Positions 7,680-33,695 of a stretch of DNA of 39,007 nucleotides are shown here, in pieces (the first letter of the stretch is position 1; each line of letters begins with the position of its first letter). Origin of the DNA: Clostridia bacterium (GTDB taxonomy: Bacteria; Bacillota; Clostridia; Christensenellales; UBA1242); the NCBI GenBank assembly GCA_028708805.1, contig JAQVYC010000002.1, positions 23,001-62,007 of the forward strand, given 5' to 3'. The notes beneath the pieces were generated by a model. The model did no database searches and was not told the origin of the DNA. It saw nothing but the letters and a program-made list of their open reading frames with translations. Made by a program: the position numbers and the translations under genes.

Positions 7680-8276
7680 TTATCTGCAAGAATTTAATTC
7701 GTTTTTGCTTTCATTTACTTTTGTTTTTTCGGGTGCTTCTATTATATCAGCCATCAACCAATTGTTTTTATCATCATAATATGAAATAACCCTGTTTCCT
7801 TCATAGTCTTTTTTATCAACAACAAGTATAGTATATTCAGATTTATTACTATCTTTTTGATTCGATACATTGTAAGCAACCGAATTTTTATCTCCTGTAC
7901 AAACAGCCATTTTAATGCTTTCAAAACGGTTTTGCTCAGTCGGTTTTTGTGTTAATTTAAATAATACTGACTTTACCACTTCAAGTCCGCCCTGTTGATA
8001 ATCTTCATCTGGGGTTTTTATATCTTCATCAATTAAAAAGCCATATACACCATTTGCGGTTCTTACTTTTCCATATTTATCAGCAAGCTTTGCATTTTTG
8101 CCAAAAAACATTTTTATATCTCCAAAGTCTATAAATTGAAGAAAATTATTAGCAAGCTTTTTAAATTCTACATTCTCATATATCAACGGCAATAAATTAT
8201 AAGATTTAATAAATCTTTGAACAACTTTTTGATTTTCTTTTAAATTTTCTTTCCCAAACTTTAATTTTGAAAACAT
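7680..8276 (-). CDS. Hypothetical protein
   Basis: 198-aa ORF with SD aaggag; no family recognised. Confidence 0.75.
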   Translation of the reverse strand: MFSKLKFGKENLKENQKVVQRFIKSYNLLPLIYENVEFKKLANNFLQFIDFGDIKMFFGKNAKLADKYGKVRTANGVYGFLIDEDIKTPDEDYQQGGLEVVKSVLFKLTQKPTEQNRFESIKMAVCTGDKNSVAYNVSNQKDSNKSEYTILVVDKKDYEGNRVISYYDDKNNWLMADIIEAPEKTKVNESKNELNSCR

Positions 8277-8468
8277 TTAATCTCCTTTGAAACCTTAATT
8301 TGTTTAAAGTTCTTAAATATATTTTTTTAATAATAATATTATATCACATATTATATATTTGTAAATAGCATCTTTTTTTGCTTTGTTTGCAAGTAAATTT
8401 TTAAAAATTACTTTATTTTTTGCACAATATGATGTATAATACAGGTTAGTTTAAAAAAGAGGAATATT

Positions 8469-9755
8469 ATGAAAACTAAGACTAATGAATTAAAATGCAA
8501 TACAAATGTTGAAATTGCAGGATTTATTGAAAAAATAAGAGACCAGAAAAATATGCAATTTATTATTTTAAGAGATTTATATGGTGCTGTTCAAATTACT
8601 GTTGATAAATCTAAATGTACAAGCTTACTATCTGTAACAGAGAAATTATCTATTAATTCTTTTGTAATAATTAAAGGTGAAGTGGTTGAAAACAGTTATG
8701 TAAAACTTGGCGGAAAGGAAATAATTCCGTCTGAAATTATAATTGAAAGCATTGCCGATACTTTGCCTATTGACGAAGAAAGCAACATTGACCAAAAGCT
8801 TGATTATAGATGGATAGATTTGCGTCAACCTAAAAATGCTTTAATGATGAAAGTTCAAACACTATTCACACATTCGGTTCGTAATTTTCTATACGAAAGA
8901 GATTTTGTTGAAATGCATTCACCTAAAATAATTTCTCAACCGAGTGAATCTGGCTCAGACCTTTTTACTCTTGATTATTTTGGAGAAAAAGCATACCTTA
9001 CGCAGTCGCCACAATTTTATAAGCAAATGGCAATTGCAAGCGGACTTGAAAAAATATTTGAAGTAGGTCCTGTGTTTAGAGCTGAAAAAAGTTTCACTTC
9101 TCGACACGCAACAGAATTTACTGGCATTGATTTAGAAATAGCAAATATGCACAATGTTGAAGACATAATGAAATTTGAAGAAGAAATGCTTACTTATGCA
9201 CTTGAAAAAGTAAAAGAAAAATTTGGCGAAGAAATAAAACAATATTTTGGCATCGAATTAACTATTCCGACCTTGCCATTCCCTCGAATTGAAATGAAAA
9301 CAGCCGTTGAAATTTTGCAAGACCTAGATTTTGATATCGAATTCGGCGAAGATTTTTCAACCGAGCAAGAAAAAGCTTTGGGTGAATATTTAATTAGAAA
9401 AAACGGACACGAATTCTATTTTATTACAGATTACCCTGCCGAAATTCGTGCATTCTATCATATGAAAGATGAAAAAGGCTTAACCGCAAAAGGATATGAC
9501 CTTTATTGGAAGGGTATTGAAATTACAACCGGAGCAATAAGGGAACATAGATATGACATACTTTTAGCACAGGCAATTGAACGAGGAAACTCTCAGAAAA
9601 AACTTCAATTTTATTTAGACTTTTTTAAGTATGGTTGCCCTGCTCACGGCGGTTTCGGAATTGGACTTGATAGAATTACAATGCTATTGCTTGGAATACC
9701 GACAATTAAGGAATCAATGTTTATTTTTAGAGGCCCAACAAGAATTAAACCTTAA
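8469..9755 (+). CDS. aspS: Archaeal-type (probably non-discriminating) aspartyl-tRNA synthetase
   Basis: About 428 aa without the bacterial GAD insertion; class II motifs (FVEMHSPKI, VFRAEKSFTSRHATEFTGIDLE, GIGLDRITMLLLG); upstream of gatCAB. Confidence 0.93.
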   Translation: MKTKTNELKCNTNVEIAGFIEKIRDQKNMQFIILRDLYGAVQITVDKSKCTSLLSVTEKLSINSFVIIKGEVVENSYVKLGGKEIIPSEIIIESIADTLPIDEESNIDQKLDYRWIDLRQPKNALMMKVQTLFTHSVRNFLYERDFVEMHSPKIISQPSESGSDLFTLDYFGEKAYLTQSPQFYKQMAIASGLEKIFEVGPVFRAEKSFTSRHATEFTGIDLEIANMHNVEDIMKFEEEMLTYALEKVKEKFGEEIKQYFGIELTIPTLPFPRIEMKTAVEILQDLDFDIEFGEDFSTEQEKALGEYLIRKNGHEFYFITDYPAEIRAFYHMKDEKGLTAKGYDLYWKGIEITTGAIREHRYDILLAQAIERGNSQKKLQFYLDFFKYGCPAHGGFGIGLDRITMLLLGIPTIKESMFIFRGPTRIKP

Positions 9756-18112: not shown

Positions 18113-19240
18113 CTAAATTTTTTTAATGTAACTGCGTCTACGCTTGTGTTGTATGTGATCAAAGTTATCCCAAGTTTGCTGAATTCTCAAATTATCTTCT
18201 AGCATTAAGTTAGTTTCGCAATATTCAAATTTTTCTTCAATCATATGCTCAATAATAAAACTCATAACAACGGCAGGTAAACCTTTATTTTGATACTTAT
18301 CTCTAACCCCAATTAAACCTAAATCGGCACGCTTGTTTTTTTTGCTCTTAACAGCCCGAAGCATTCTGATAAAACCAAAAGGAAGATATCTTCCCTTAGA
18401 TTTTCGAACAGCCTCTGATAAAGAAGGTATTGCAAAACCAAATGCAGCAATTTCATCGTTTTCGTCAACAATTGTAATAATATATTCTAATTTTATAAAA
18501 AGCTTAAACTGAGAAATAATCTGATCACGAAGCTTGTCTGTAAAAGGCACAACTCCATATAAAGTACTATATGCCTCGTCTAAAACATCGAAAATGCCTT
18601 TTTTATATTTTTCTATATATTTTCTTTTGCTTTTTTCTTTTACAACTCTTAATTTAAACCTTTTAAGAACAGCTTCAGATAATTTTTTTACTCTTTCATT
18701 TATTTCCTTAGGCGGAAATATTCTGTATTCTAACCAATCAATTTCTTTGCCGTAACCACATTTTTCAATTAATTTTGGATAATAATCATAATTATATTGC
18801 TCTTCAAAAGTAGAATCATAATCAAAACCATTAATTAAAAGACCTTCTCTATCTAAATCATTAAAACCAAGTGGACCGTGAACCATTTCCATTCCATTTT
18901 TCTTTGCCCATTTCTCCACTGCGCCAAAAAGAGCCTTAGCAACCTCTTCATCGTTAACGCTATCAAATCTTGAAAATCTAACTCTTTTTTCTTTTGTTTT
19001 TTCATTATAAACATTTTGTTGTATGCCTGCAATTCTGCCAACAACTTTTCCGTCTTTCAACGCAAGATAATAAACCGCATCACAATCTTTATATATCTCA
19101 TTTTTGTTGCGGTTAAAAAGTTTCATCTCGTCAACGCGTAACGGATGAACATAATATTCGCATTTATCATAAAGTTTAGTAGGAAAATCAACGAACTGCG
19201 CACGCTGTTTCCTCGTTATAACCTCTTTAATTTCTATCAT
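18113..19240 (-). CDS. GNAT-fold acyltransferase (YghO-like family)
   Basis: GPLGFNDLDREGLLINGFDY...YNYDYYPKLIEKCGYGKEIDWLEYRI; C-terminal GLIGVRDKYQNKGLPAVVM acyl-CoA-site-like motif; ATG start at 19240. Confidence 0.8.
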   Translation of the reverse strand: MIEIKEVITRKQRAQFVDFPTKLYDKCEYYVHPLRVDEMKLFNRNKNEIYKDCDAVYYLALKDGKVVGRIAGIQQNVYNEKTKEKRVRFSRFDSVNDEEVAKALFGAVEKWAKKNGMEMVHGPLGFNDLDREGLLINGFDYDSTFEEQYNYDYYPKLIEKCGYGKEIDWLEYRIFPPKEINERVKKLSEAVLKRFKLRVVKEKSKRKYIEKYKKGIFDVLDEAYSTLYGVVPFTDKLRDQIISQFKLFIKLEYIITIVDENDEIAAFGFAIPSLSEAVRKSKGRYLPFGFIRMLRAVKSKKNKRADLGLIGVRDKYQNKGLPAVVMSFIIEHMIEEKFEYCETNLMLEDNLRIQQTWDNFDHIQHKRRRSYIKKI

Positions 19241-19246
19241 ATTAGT

Positions 19247-19275
19247 ATTATACAATTGACGGTTTCAAAAATCAA
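19247..19275 (-). promoter_or_regulatory. Promoter of the GNAT gene, leaderless geometry
   Basis: Minus strand TTGATT-17-TATAAT, then actaat, then ATG. Confidence 0.75.
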
Positions 19276-21920: not shown

Positions 21921-24900
21921 ATGAAAAAATTTATTAAAAAATTCTCACTTATCATGGCATTAGTTATGTGTTTAGGATTAGGATATCCTGCACTTACGCC
22001 ACTAAGAGTGTCAGCGGAAGAGACAGCTTTCGATGTCGTAGTTCCGGGAATTATAATTGAAAATTTTAAAAACACAGCAACAAAGGGGGCACAGTATATT
22101 ATTCCGCAAGGAACTGTTGGTGCTGAAACTGCTACTATAACTGTTACCAACCCGATTGGTGAAGCAGTTGAAGATATAGCAAACTTCATCCCAGATATGG
22201 CAGGAACTTATATAATAAGTTATACGCACGGAGCACACGCAACAGATTTAACCCTTGATGTAAGCGGTGTTGCAACAGGCACAGAAATTACTTTTGAAAA
22301 GAATAGTAAATATATTGTGCCATCAATAATCAATCCAGAGCATCAAGATGATGGACTTAGAATAACATTACCTAATCCTAGTGTGGTTGATTCTAATGGC
22401 GACATAATTAATGCTGCCGTAGTTACAGTAACCGTAGCTTTCTCGGGAGAAAGTACAGATTATAGTTTTTTACTAGACGAAGTTACAGGTGATAACAACG
22501 AAAAATTTGATGTGCTAGAACTAGACCCAAATGCTAGCGGAATTTATACAATTAGTTATAAATATAAAAATGGAGACACATTATTAGCTTCTGCATACAA
22601 GACAATTCAAGCTGATGTTAATTATAACAATGATTTTGAATATACTTATGATTATGAAGCTTCATTACCGTCAACAGCTGAAATTGGAGTTAGTAAAAAA
22701 CTTCCTACAATATCAGCAACAACAAAAATTAAAAATAAAGATACAAAAATAGAAGCTTTTTACACAGTTAAAGCACAGTTAACAACAGGAGCTCAAACCG
22801 TTTACAATCTAGGCGATGACACTGCGGTTATAACTCAAAAAGACGGAGCTTACTACTTCACACCAATTTTAAATGGCGACTATATCATAACTTATACAGT
22901 TAAAAATTTCTTTAATAATGAACCAACAGTATCAAGCACAAGCTTCCAAATTGAAAATGTTAAAGATACAATAGCACCTGAAACAGTAGTAGTTATGCCT
23001 TACACAGAAGAAGACTTTAATGAAAAAGGTGTTTTAACTGACTATATAATTGCAAACGAAGCAATTGCAAATAATACAATCGATGAAAATATTTTACTTT
23101 TCCCTATCTATGCAAATGATGCAGCTAACGGGATTGTAGAAGATAACCTAACATTATATAGAACTTTGAAAAAGCAACCTAATACAACAATATTTGATGA
23201 AAGAACAGATATAACTGATGAAAACGCAAATGGAAAAATCTTAGTATTTAATTCTAATTTAGATATAACTGGAGAACCAACACATATAGTTTTGACAGTT
23301 AATATAAATGGAATTGCTGATGAAATTACTGAATCTCAGATTTATGTCGTTTCAGAATATACTAGCGAAGATAAATTACTTAATGGAACTTATACAATGA
23401 CCTATATTGCTAACGATAAAGCAGGAAACGGCGAAAAATATCCAACACCTTACACAATGGTAGTTGACTCAGACTTTGAAGACATTGATGCCCCTACTGT
23501 GAAATTTGCCGAAAATTTACCAACAGCAGTTTTCTTGGACACAGAAGTATCTTTCAAGGCTCCAACAGCCACAGACAAAGATAAAAAAGATACTCGTTTA
23601 AGTGTTTATATTACTTATAAAACAATAGATAATGGCATAGAATCTGCGGAAATCAGAGCTGATGCCGAAGAAAGCCTTATCTCTTATAATAGTAAAGCAG
23701 ACACATATAGTTTTACAATAACAGATGTAGATACTTCAAAAATTATAATTATTGCAAACTCACAAGATAATAGCGGAAACCTTGGAACAACAGAGCAAGA
23801 AGTAATAATATTAAACACGGGTGATAATGCACCTACAACAATTAGTAATGTTAATACTTCTACAACACAAGATGAAAGCGAATTAGTTAACGGAAATAAT
23901 ATATTACTACCAACCGTTATTTACGGCGATGATTTAATTGACTATTTAAATGTAGAAATATTAGTTGAAAATAATGGTGTTAATTATACTGCTTATGATG
24001 CTAAAAGAATTAGAAACTACACAGCTAATACCTTAACTGTTTCAGACGCATATTTCTGCGCTAACACTTCTGGCGAATACTTTGTAACCTATATTTCAAC
24101 TGATGCTGGCAACAATAAAACCATTTTAGTGTTTAGCGTTACTATTGGAATAAATGTTGGAATTATGAATTTTGAGTTTACTGGTCTACCTAGTCAAATA
24201 AATAATGGCTCAGCTGAAAAAGGCGAATCTGTAAGACTTGAAATACCTAACCTTGATTTAGGCTCAGCAACAGCTGAATATGAAATTGAAAACGGAACTT
24301 ATTACTTGGATATTACAGGCTCAAACTATAATTTATCTGGAAATTATTACTTTACACCAAATGAAGTTGGAACTTACACAATTCAGTATAAAGCAAACAT
24401 TGTTAACATTCTTTCACAAGAACTTTTAAAAGAAGTGGTAAGTGATGTTTATTCAATTGAAGTTGTAGACACAAACGGACCAATTTTTGATAATGAAGAT
24501 GTAATCTATATTGAAAACTATTTTGCAGATTATAATGCACAAGGTGTAAAAAAGGGAGATAATATAACCATTCCTTTACCATCATTATATAGCGATGTTG
24601 TTCGTGAAACTTCAACAGTTACAATTTCAACCTCTACTGGTGGAACAACAACTATTGATTTAAGTAAAGAAGATGACATTATTAGACTTACCGATTATAA
24701 ATTTAACCGAAATGACACATACACAATCACTTATAACTTGTTAGATGAATTTGGCAATAAAACTTCAAAAGCATTTACACTTGATGTAGGTGATGTTGAA
24801 CCGCCAGTTTTAGATATTGATGATAAAATCTTTGCTGATGAATATTCAATCAATCAAAAAATTGAAATAGATTTAAGTAAAATTTCGGCAACTGATAATG

Positions 24901-25280
24901 TTGATGGCAAAATTATATTAAAAAATGAAGAAACTGGTATCTACTCACTTAAATCTGGAACAACATTTACAATCACAGTTAAAAACACATCTACAAAAAT
25001 AGAAGTTGAAAGCGACTTTGAATTTGATGAAACTGACATGAGATTCCAATACACAATACCAACAGCAGGAAGTTATACAGTTACAATTGAAGTTGCAGAT
25101 ACAGCTGGCAAAATTAAAACATCAACTCATAATTTTACTGTTAGCGCTGATTCTAACGCAGGAATGTCTGCTCAAGAAATTTTAGGAACAGTTTTAATTA
25201 TAGTTTCAGTTTTACTTCTTGGCGGAGTTATAACTTACTTTATAGTATCTAAAAAGAATCTTGAAAAGAAGTATAAATAA
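21921..25280 (+). CDS. Large surface-anchored protein with repeated Ig-like domains
   Basis: Signal peptide MKKFIKKFSLIMALVMCLGLGYPALTPLRVSA; about 9 copies of G-x-Y-x-I-x-Y type Ig-like strand motifs; C-terminal TM helix plus KKNLEKKYK. Confidence 0.88.
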   Translation: MKKFIKKFSLIMALVMCLGLGYPALTPLRVSAEETAFDVVVPGIIIENFKNTATKGAQYIIPQGTVGAETATITVTNPIGEAVEDIANFIPDMAGTYIISYTHGAHATDLTLDVSGVATGTEITFEKNSKYIVPSIINPEHQDDGLRITLPNPSVVDSNGDIINAAVVTVTVAFSGESTDYSFLLDEVTGDNNEKFDVLELDPNASGIYTISYKYKNGDTLLASAYKTIQADVNYNNDFEYTYDYEASLPSTAEIGVSKKLPTISATTKIKNKDTKIEAFYTVKAQLTTGAQTVYNLGDDTAVITQKDGAYYFTPILNGDYIITYTVKNFFNNEPTVSSTSFQIENVKDTIAPETVVVMPYTEEDFNEKGVLTDYIIANEAIANNTIDENILLFPIYANDAANGIVEDNLTLYRTLKKQPNTTIFDERTDITDENANGKILVFNSNLDITGEPTHIVLTVNINGIADEITESQIYVVSEYTSEDKLLNGTYTMTYIANDKAGNGEKYPTPYTMVVDSDFEDIDAPTVKFAENLPTAVFLDTEVSFKAPTATDKDKKDTRLSVYITYKTIDNGIESAEIRADAEESLISYNSKADTYSFTITDVDTSKIIIIANSQDNSGNLGTTEQEVIILNTGDNAPTTISNVNTSTTQDESELVNGNNILLPTVIYGDDLIDYLNVEILVENNGVNYTAYDAKRIRNYTANTLTVSDAYFCANTSGEYFVTYISTDAGNNKTILVFSVTIGINVGIMNFEFTGLPSQINNGSAEKGESVRLEIPNLDLGSATAEYEIENGTYYLDITGSNYNLSGNYYFTPNEVGTYTIQYKANIVNILSQELLKEVVSDVYSIEVVDTNGPIFDNEDVIYIENYFADYNAQGVKKGDNITIPLPSLYSDVVRETSTVTISTSTGGTTTIDLSKEDDIIRLTDYKFNRNDTYTITYNLLDEFGNKTSKAFTLDVGDVEPPVLDIDDKIFADEYSINQKIEIDLSKISATDNVDGKIILKNEETGIYSLKSGTTFTITVKNTSTKIEVESDFEFDETDMRFQYTIPTAGSYTVTIEVADTAGKIKTSTHNFTVSADSNAGMSAQEILGTVLIIVSVLLLGGVITYFIVSKKNLEKKYK

Positions 25281-30772: not shown

Positions 30773-31549
30773 TTAATACTTTCCACCCTTAAATTTGTTA
30801 GTTGCCTTTATAAACCAATTAAGCGGAAATATTTTATAAAGAATATATAAAAATTTATATTTCTTACCGATTATATATTGTGGTTTTAACTTTTTCTTAT
30901 TTATAATTTTAAAAACCTTACAGGAAGCATATTGCACAGACATTCTCTTACTTTCATTTTTATCTATGTTGTCTGTCGCAGACTTAATTCGATTACCATA
31001 TCTTTCATTTGTTTCAAAATTTTTAACTCTATTTTTTGTAAAACTTGTTTTAATATCCCCTGGGCAAATAGCACTAACTTGCACATTTGCATTTTTAAGT
31101 TCCATATTTAAGCAGTTAGTGAACATACTCACTGCCGATTTGCTTGCACAATACAGAGTTCGAAATGGCAATGGAAAAAAAGCACAAACTGAGCTGATAT
31201 TAATAATTTTTCCACCTTTTCTCATAAGTGGAAGAGCATTTTGAATGCAAAATAATGTTCCAAAAAAATTTACATCAAAAATCCTGCGGGCTTCTAATGC
31301 CGAAATTAATTCTGTTGCCCCCGAAATTCCATAACCTGCATTATTTAAAAGCAAGTCAATTTTATCAAACTTTTCACCAATTTCTTTGAATGCTTTTTTA
31401 ATATCATTCTCGTTAGACAAGTCGCATTTTATACCGTCCTTCTCATCAACACTTCTTGCCAAAACAATAATATTATGTCCCTGATTTTTAAATTTCAAGG
31501 TAAGCTCTTTACCTAAACCGCTTGTTCCGCCTGTTATAACTATATTCAA
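30773..31549 (-). CDS. Classical SDR-family oxidoreductase (paralog 1)
   Basis: TGGTSGLGKE, NNAGYG, ISSVCAFFPLPFRTLYCASKSA (S-Y-K triad); hydrophobic C-terminus; TTG start with AGGGG. Confidence 0.9.
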   Translation of the reverse strand: MNIVITGGTSGLGKELTLKFKNQGHNIIVLARSVDEKDGIKCDLSNENDIKKAFKEIGEKFDKIDLLLNNAGYGISGATELISALEARRIFDVNFFGTLFCIQNALPLMRKGGKIINISSVCAFFPLPFRTLYCASKSAVSMFTNCLNMELKNANVQVSAICPGDIKTSFTKNRVKNFETNERYGNRIKSATDNIDKNESKRMSVQYASCKVFKIINKKKLKPQYIIGKKYKFLYILYKIFPLNWFIKATNKFKGGKY

Positions 31550-31574
31550 TTTTATCCCCTATTTATATATTTAA

Positions 31575-31603
31575 AGTTTAGTGTAAAATTTAAGTATTGT
31601 CAA
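31575..31603 (-). promoter_or_regulatory. Promoter of SDR paralog 1
   Basis: Minus strand TTGACA-17-TAAACT. Confidence 0.65.
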
Positions 31604-31621
31604 TAAATATCATTAAATATA

Positions 31622-31650
31622 TTGACTTTATACCTTTTTGGTTGTAAACT
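31622..31650 (+). promoter_or_regulatory. Promoter of SDR paralog 2 and the SPT-like gene
   Basis: TTGACT-17-TAAACT. Confidence 0.65.
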
Positions 31651-31687
31651 AAATTAATATTCGTAAACAAAATTAAGGAGTTTTAAT

Positions 31688-32473
31688 TTGATTGTTATAA
31701 TCACAGGAGCAAGTAGCGGAATCGGGCTTGCAACAGCCAATTTCTTAACGGAGAAAGGTTACAAGGTTTACGGACTTTCTAGAAGATTACCTGAAAACAG
31801 TAAATTTGAAAATCTTTCATGTGACATCACAGATTATGATGCTGTTTTGCAAAAACTAAATTACATATTTGAAAAAGAAGGCAAGATTGATGTGCTTATA
31901 AACAATGCTGGAATGGGTATTGCAGGGGCAATTGAGCATACAGAAAATGAAAATATTCAAAAGATTTTTGACTTGAATATTCTAGCAGTAATAAATTGCA
32001 GTAAGCTGGTTGTTCCTTTTATGCGTGCAGGCGGTGGCGGAAAAATTATAAATATTAGTTCTGTTGCTGGTGTAATTCCTATTCCATTTCAAACATGTTA
32101 CTCGGTAACCAAATCCGCAGTGGATATGTTTTCAATGGCGTTCGGATTAGAGGTGAAAGATTTTAAAATACAACTAACATCTATAATGCCTGGTGACACA
32201 AAATCTAGCTTTGTAGATAACCGTGTTAAAAATAAATTGCTTGAAGACGAAAATTATAAAACCAGAATTGAGTCCTCCATCAAAAAAATGGAAAAAGACG
32301 AAAGAAAAGGAATGAGCCCGCTTTGTGTTAGTAAAGTAATTTATAAAACTATAAGAAAAAAGAAATCACCATCTAGAATAACAGTCGGATTTAACTACAA
32401 ATTGATAGTTTTTTTAAGCAAAATTTTACCAAGAAAATTTATGCTCTATGTTATTAAAAAAATCTACGGGTAA
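31688..32473 (+). CDS. Classical SDR-family oxidoreductase (paralog 2; candidate 3-ketosphinganine reductase)
   Basis: TGASSGIGLATANFL, NNAGMGIAGAIE, ISSVAGVIPIPFQTCYSVTKSA; TTG start with AAGGAG; 31 nt before the SPT-like gene. Confidence 0.9.
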   Translation: MIVIITGASSGIGLATANFLTEKGYKVYGLSRRLPENSKFENLSCDITDYDAVLQKLNYIFEKEGKIDVLINNAGMGIAGAIEHTENENIQKIFDLNILAVINCSKLVVPFMRAGGGGKIINISSVAGVIPIPFQTCYSVTKSAVDMFSMAFGLEVKDFKIQLTSIMPGDTKSSFVDNRVKNKLLEDENYKTRIESSIKKMEKDERKGMSPLCVSKVIYKTIRKKKSPSRITVGFNYKLIVFLSKILPRKFMLYVIKKIYG

Positions 32474-32504
32474 ATAAAAATGATTATTCATAAAGGAGAA
32501 TAAA

Positions 32505-33695
32505 ATGGATTTATTTAAAAAATGTGAAATATTTAATAAGGAAGTATTAGGAAAAGTTAATGAAACAGGATTATATCCTTATTTCCATTATTTGAATTCA
32601 GGGCAAGATACTGAAGTTATAATGGAAGGGAAAAGAACCATTATGATTGGTTCAAACAATTATTTGGGATTAACATCGCATCCAGATGTAATAAAGGCCG
32701 GAGTTGAGGCAATTGAAAAATACGGTTCAGGTTGTTCAGGTTCTAGATTTTTAAACGGAACTTTGGACATTCATATTGAACTTGAAAAAGAACTTGCCGA
32801 ATTTTTACAAAAAGAAGATGTTGTAACATTTAGTACAGGTTTTCAAAGTAACTTGGGCATAATAAGTACAATTGCAGGACGAAACGATTATATTTTATGT
32901 GATAAAGAAAACCACGCAAGTATTTATGATGCTTGTAGATTAAGTTTTGCAAAAATGCTTAGATTTGAACATAGCGATATGGAAGACCTTGAAAAGCAAC
33001 TTGAAATCATACCTGAGAGTGCAGGAATTTTAATTGTAACCGATGGTGTTTTTAGTATGAGTGGTGAAATATGTAAGTTACCTAAAATAGTTGAATTAGC
33101 AAAAAAATATGGTGCTAGAATAATGGTAGATGATGCTCACGGACTAGGCGTTTTAGGGGACCACGGCAGAGGCACAGCTGAGCATTTTGGACTTGAAAAA
33201 GAAGTTGATATTTATATGGGAACATTTAGTAAATCTCTTGCAAGTCTTGGCGGATATATGGCTTCAACAAAAGAAGTTGTAACCTTTATAAAGCATAATT
33301 CAAGACCATTTATTTTCAGTGCAAGCCCAACACCTGCATGCGTTGCTTGTGCTAGAGCATCACTTAAATTACTTAGAGAAAATCCTCAAATGGTTCAAAA
33401 TTTAAAAGAAATTTCAAACTATATGCGTACTGGGCTTAAAAATAAAGGAATTAAATTAATTGAAAGTATTACCCCAATTATTCCTATCTTTACATACGAA
33501 GACGAAAAAGCTTTTATGGCATGTAAACTTCTTTTAGAACGAGGAGTATATGTAAATCCTGTTATTTCTCCAGCAACTCCTAAGGGACAAGCATTATTAA
33601 GAACAAGTTATATGGCAACACATACAAAAGAACAAATGGATGAAGCCATTGAAAAAATTGCAGAAGTTTTGAAAGAGTTAGAATTATTAGATTAA
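32505..33695 (+). CDS. Alpha-oxoamine synthase, serine-palmitoyltransferase-like
   Basis: GSGCSGSRFLNGTLDIHIELE, FSTGFQSNLGIISTIAGRNDYI, HASIYD, VDDAHGLGVLG, GTFSKSLASLGG (PLP Lys), RPFIFSASPTPA, SPATPKGQALLRTS. Confidence 0.87.
   Translation: MDLFKKCEIFNKEVLGKVNETGLYPYFHYLNSGQDTEVIMEGKRTIMIGSNNYLGLTSHPDVIKAGVEAIEKYGSGCSGSRFLNGTLDIHIELEKELAEFLQKEDVVTFSTGFQSNLGIISTIAGRNDYILCDKENHASIYDACRLSFAKMLRFEHSDMEDLEKQLEIIPESAGILIVTDGVFSMSGEICKLPKIVELAKKYGARIMVDDAHGLGVLGDHGRGTAEHFGLEKEVDIYMGTFSKSLASLGGYMASTKEVVTFIKHNSRPFIFSASPTPACVACARASLKLLRENPQMVQNLKEISNYMRTGLKNKGIKLIESITPIIPIFTYEDEKAFMACKLLLERGVYVNPVISPATPKGQALLRTSYMATHTKEQMDEAIEKIAEVLKELELLD

Follow-up and report, generated by a model that had tools for sequence, protein, structure and literature searches.

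A candidate dihydroceramide pathway core in a Clostridia bacterium with a small genome

Three genes from an uncultured member of the Clostridia with a small genome probably form the core of a bacterial sphingolipid (dihydroceramide) pathway, as judged from the families, neighbours and co-occurrence of the encoded proteins. The window (the whole stretch of 39,007 nucleotides that was analysed) maps to contig C38 of an assembly that spans 0.93 Mb and is 93% complete. In the proposed pathway, an alpha-oxoamine synthase (AOS) would join an amino acid, most likely L-serine, to a long-chain acyl thioester to generate 3-ketosphinganine; its placement among the serine palmitoyltransferases (SPTs) and its active-site residues point to this reaction. 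SDR1 would then use NADPH to reduce the ketone to sphinganine, a step suggested by its family, its motifs and its conserved adjacency to the AOS. Finally, a YghO-type acyltransferase would N-acylate the base to yield dihydroceramide, as indicated by its homology to YghO/bCerS and its co-occurrence with the AOS. The last two steps may occur in either order, and N-acylation ahead of reduction has been argued for Caulobacter (PMC11087976). The acyl chains presumably come from the FASII system and acyl carrier proteins (ACPs) of the genome itself.

Table 1. Genes of the proposed pathway and the neighbouring paralogue, with window positions
Feature	Position	Strand	Product
SDR2	30773-31549	-	258 aa
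SDR1	31688-32473	+	261 aa, TTG start
AOS (alpha-oxoamine synthase)	32505-33695	+	396 aa
YghO/bCerS-like GNAT-type N-acyltransferase	18113-19255	-	380 aa; candidate (dihydro)ceramide synthase by homology

The three open reading frames at the AOS locus were first marked in a sequence-only reading of this DNA. All three are real, the sequence blocks which that reading quoted for the synthase are present, and the arrangement is as it claimed: the AOS begins 31 nt downstream of a classical SDR (SDR1), and a second, paralogous SDR (SDR2, 38% identical to SDR1) is divergent, with 138 bp between the two. The genome was correctly described as Firmicutes-like, in that the nearest named records to the AOS locus are uncultured Clostridia; the AOS of 'Christensenella sp. 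UBA5489' is 90% identical. Relatives in the genus retain TruA, PFOR and YchF around the SDR and AOS genes, arguing that the locus is native and against a mis-binned or contaminating contig. Two other features of this contig lie outside the proposed pathway. Upstream of the window, region L206 (12523-14385) encodes a P22-like portal protein among large same-strand open reading frames without Pfam matches, and is a probable prophage. Within the window, positions 21921-25280 encode a 1119-aa protein with bacterial Ig-like domains, which is probably a surface protein.

The synthase is closest to the Bacteroidota-type SPTs. Its top NCBIfam match is NF047600 (SPT-CFB) at 558.3 bits, short of the equivalog cut-off of 640 but 133 bits ahead of every other model; the next are SPT-beta (425), PRK06939 glycine C-acetyltransferase (410), gly_Cac_T_rel (407) and BioF (380). 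Among PDB entries, the Sphingobacterium-type SPT (3a2b/8guh) scores 442 bits, the Sphingomonas SPT about 305-311 and Kbl 293. Identity to the window AOS is 54% for the Parabacteroides SPT, 51% for the Bacteroides SPT and 41% for the E. coli spt product, as against 38% for E. coli Kbl and 31% for BioF. A residue map places the PLP lysine at K243, and N51, H137, D210, H212 and R366 are also present.

The relationships of the enzyme were analysed with an IQ-TREE tree of 55 rows, comprising Clostridia AOS proteins, SPTs, WOR-3 proteins, a Priestia plasmid protein, SulA, Kbl, BioF and ALAS. The Clostridia proteins form a single clade (100/100). This clade falls within a larger SPT clade that holds all SPTs together with the Clostridia, WOR-3 and Priestia plasmid proteins; support for the larger clade, 89/86, is just short of firm. 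With 95/94 support SulA is the sister of the SPT clade; Kbl, BioF and ALAS fall outside this grouping. The sequence-only reading had taken the synthase to be SPT-like rather than a Kbl or BioF, and had proposed a phylogeny in which placement inside either of those clades would count against it; the enzyme groups with the SPTs instead. The window AOS shares with the Bacteroidota-type SPTs (NF047600; Sphingobacterium 3a2b; Parabacteroides/Bacteroides) its fold family, active-site set, tree placement, GSRFLNGT and FSAS motifs and 50-54% identity, but differs in belonging to a well-supported Clostridia clade of its own and in scoring below the NF047600 cut-off. The Priestia protein is encoded at positions 8001-9215 of the Priestia megaterium plasmid locus (L110, CP109762.1); it is an SPT-clade AOS in Bacilli, 49% identical to the window AOS, which adjoins acyltransferase-family and methyltransferase genes and is labelled only as an aminotransferase-fold enzyme.

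SDR1 had been expected to be a 3-ketosphinganine reductase, and the family match, motifs and conserved adjacency support it as a candidate for that role (KdsR). Its top NCBIfam match is NF049977 (KdsR) at 237.6 bits, below the cut-off of 400. The GxxxGxG (TGASSGIG) and YxxxK (YSVTK) motifs are present, as used for KdsR of the BT_0972 type (PMC9278070), along with the Arg pair after beta-2 that belongs to the SDR/NADPH motif; with 238 of 400 bits, KdsR activity is putative for SDR1. At 24 of 75 related loci the AOS has a relative of SDR1 as its same-strand neighbour, lying upstream in 10 (the genus itself and its kin) and downstream in 14, the latter in other Clostridia, 'Tenericutes'-labelled MAGs and a Cloacimonadota contig, whose adjoining SDR scores 244 bits to NF049977. 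The adjacency thus survives a change of gene order, which suggests a functional link. B. thetaiotaomicron differs on this point: its KDSR (BT_0972) is not clustered with its SPT (BT_0870; PMC9278070), whereas a KdsR-like SDR adjoins the AOS in a third of the related loci here. SDR2 has PRK06179 as its best NCBIfam match (163 bits), with KdsR at 160 bits, and is retained beside SDR1 and the AOS within the genus and in some other members of the family.

The synthase has matches in 33 of the 60 nearest related genomes, nearly all of them strong, and so is not a chance occurrence. Across the phylum it was found in about 5% of sampled species (21/398). The host does belong to the Clostridia, but the sequence-only reading, which considered sphingolipid genes notable in a Firmicutes-like genome, made the case more exceptional than this frequency allows.

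The SPT-like and SDR part of the module described earlier stands, but the module is larger than that, because the gene for a YghO/bCerS-type N-acyltransferase had been missed. When neighbours of the AOS were clustered, the protein encoded downstream of the AOS on WOR-3 chromosomes was found to be homologous to this gene's product. The window protein is a full-length homologue of YghO (27.6% identity over 388 aa, E 1.3e-45). In E. coli, yghO adjoins spt; their cluster further comprises genes for a fatty acyl-AMP ligase, an epimerase-family protein and an ACP, and 4039 of the 5426 complete genomes of this species have most of it. Together with Caulobacter CC_1154, yghO has been assigned to the acyl-CoA N-acyltransferase of dihydroceramide synthesis (PMC9386255). 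SPT has a YghO-like neighbour in Rubrobacter, Aureispira and WOR-3 as well. The family has an invariant core, with 21 positions at least 90% conserved across 39 sequences; an AF2 model of the window protein, built from 4 sequences, has a poor pLDDT of 54. On a Rubrobacter radiotolerans plasmid (L175, 3908-7275), an SPT-like AOS, a YghO-like 'hypothetical protein' and an NAD(P)-dependent oxidoreductase are consecutive and are followed by an LTA synthase-family gene, in what is apparently a sphingolipid cluster on an actinobacterial plasmid.

The YghO-like protein tracks the AOS closely: it is present in 18 of 21 AOS-bearing species of the phylum versus 27 of 377 without AOS (398 species; Fisher 2.8e-16, a test that ignores kinship), and in 25 of 30 AOS-bearing relatives versus 9 of 29 without (59 relatives; 5e-5, likewise ignoring kinship). 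This strong co-occurrence, and the adjacency to SPT in four unrelated groups, make it rather unlikely that the synthase is an SPT while the YghO-like protein acylates some other amine, the dihydroceramide step then being absent or the work of another gene. That alternative would account for the YghO-like genes of SPT-less genomes and for the five AOS-bearing relatives (of 30) that lack one, and gut Clostridia do make other N-acyl amines (reviewed in PMC10191378). It would also fit the gene's position in this genome, 13 kb from the AOS, where no operon-level link was found. Because the family is not exclusive to SPT-bearing genomes, other N-acylations may be possible. Some relatives with no detectable SPT (for example G011, G014, G015, G016, G031 and G055) retain both SDR1-like and YghO-like genes, possibly for salvage of sphingoid bases or for some other role of both. 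The window protein resembles YghO/CC_1154 (bCerS, aca; E. coli BL21, Caulobacter) in full-length homology, invariant core residues and co-occurrence with SPT, but differs in its approximately 28% identity, its lack of SPT adjacency and the presence of its family in SPT-less genomes.

The proposed dihydroceramide pathway further assumes that the synthase uses serine. A long-chain condensing enzyme that uses alanine or glycine would instead lead to 1-deoxysphingoid bases, and the conserved active-site set, taken alone, is compatible with that; alanine use by Spt and abundant 1-deoxyceramides in anaerobic waters have been described (PMC11334938). We nevertheless consider this outcome improbable, since both the residues and the placement of the enzyme match the serine-using Bacteroidota/Sphingobacterium SPTs. 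Still less probable is an enzyme of the Kbl/gly_Cac_T_rel type (glycine plus acetyl-CoA) or the BioF type, with SDR1 an unrelated oxidoreductase. These enzymes belong to the same superfamily and their models match the AOS strongly, but the score of each falls far short of that of the SPT model. Constraining the Clostridia proteins to group with Kbl cost 58 log units and was rejected in the AU test (p-AU 0.00055). Moreover, the AOS has the SPT-diagnostic A273: in the alignment this column is Ala in the aligned SPTs and in all 25 Clostridia proteins, Asn or Thr in Kbl and Thr in BioF and ALAS. On the tree, the AU test and the diagnostic residues together, Kbl, BioF and ALAS identities were rejected. 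The sequence-only reading had noted no threonine dehydrogenase or biotin gene nearby, and the window proteins that were scanned likewise include no tdh or bio partner. A search of the genome (0.93 Mb, 93% complete) turned up no other AOS. Finally, a cysteate-condensing enzyme of the SulA/CapA type, with a pathway leading to sulfonolipids (capnine), can be dismissed despite the sister position of SulA in the tree, because SulA forms a separate clade on a long branch and has Lys (Lys281) in the column of A273, an Ala/Lys difference between SPT and SulA that has been reported, with K281A lowering SulA activity by about three orders of magnitude (PMC9304779).

For the acyl supply of the dihydroceramide pathway, a FASII operon on contig C41 encodes AccD, AccA, a MarR-type regulator, FabH, FabK, FabD, FabG, FabF and FabZ (names other than FabF were read from the sequences and not assigned by model), and the genome encodes two ACPs. 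In this genome the AOS has neither a dedicated ACP nor an acyl-ACP synthetase beside it. In distant relatives, the small genes upstream of the AOS resembled, by eye, regulators or unrelated proteins, and so no dedicated ACP is claimed. In one relative (L085), the AOS is preceded, at a distance of 30 nt, by a gene for an AMP-binding protein of the acyl-CoA synthetase type. At three other Clostridia loci (L068, L094 and L104), a gene for a PlsC-like acyltransferase is divergently adjacent, directly upstream of the AOS; the Pfam match is for L068.

The chemistry and the gene families involved are already known. The rhodobacterial cluster (aasR-epi-acpR-spt-aca) likewise combines SPT with a YghO-type acyltransferase; the window differs from it in having no adjacent acpR, aasR or epimerase-type CerR, and a classical SDR takes the place of the reductase. 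The set of phyla that potentially produce sphingolipids has been widened to 40 (PMC11334938), and small Gram-positive groups have been mentioned (PMC11087976). In the literature searched, no description was found of this Clostridia AOS clade, which combines a KdsR-like neighbour with a YghO-like partner.

A large group of uncultured, small-genome, gut-type Clostridia stands about an even chance of being overlooked sphingolipid producers, with a three-gene pathway of SPT, KdsR and YghO retained in genomes of roughly 1 Mb, and those SPT-less relatives that have the SDR1-like and YghO-like genes may salvage host or microbial bases. Sphingolipids in the gut are usually credited to Bacteroides and its kin, including Prevotella, and several known sphingolipid roles concern outer membranes. 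One gut study, for example, counted spt with Bacteroides queries (PMC12816596). If the proposal is true, it would alter both the range of known producers and how faecal sphingolipid and spt data are interpreted, and a costly lipid pathway would have been retained through genome reduction in a presumably single-membrane lineage.
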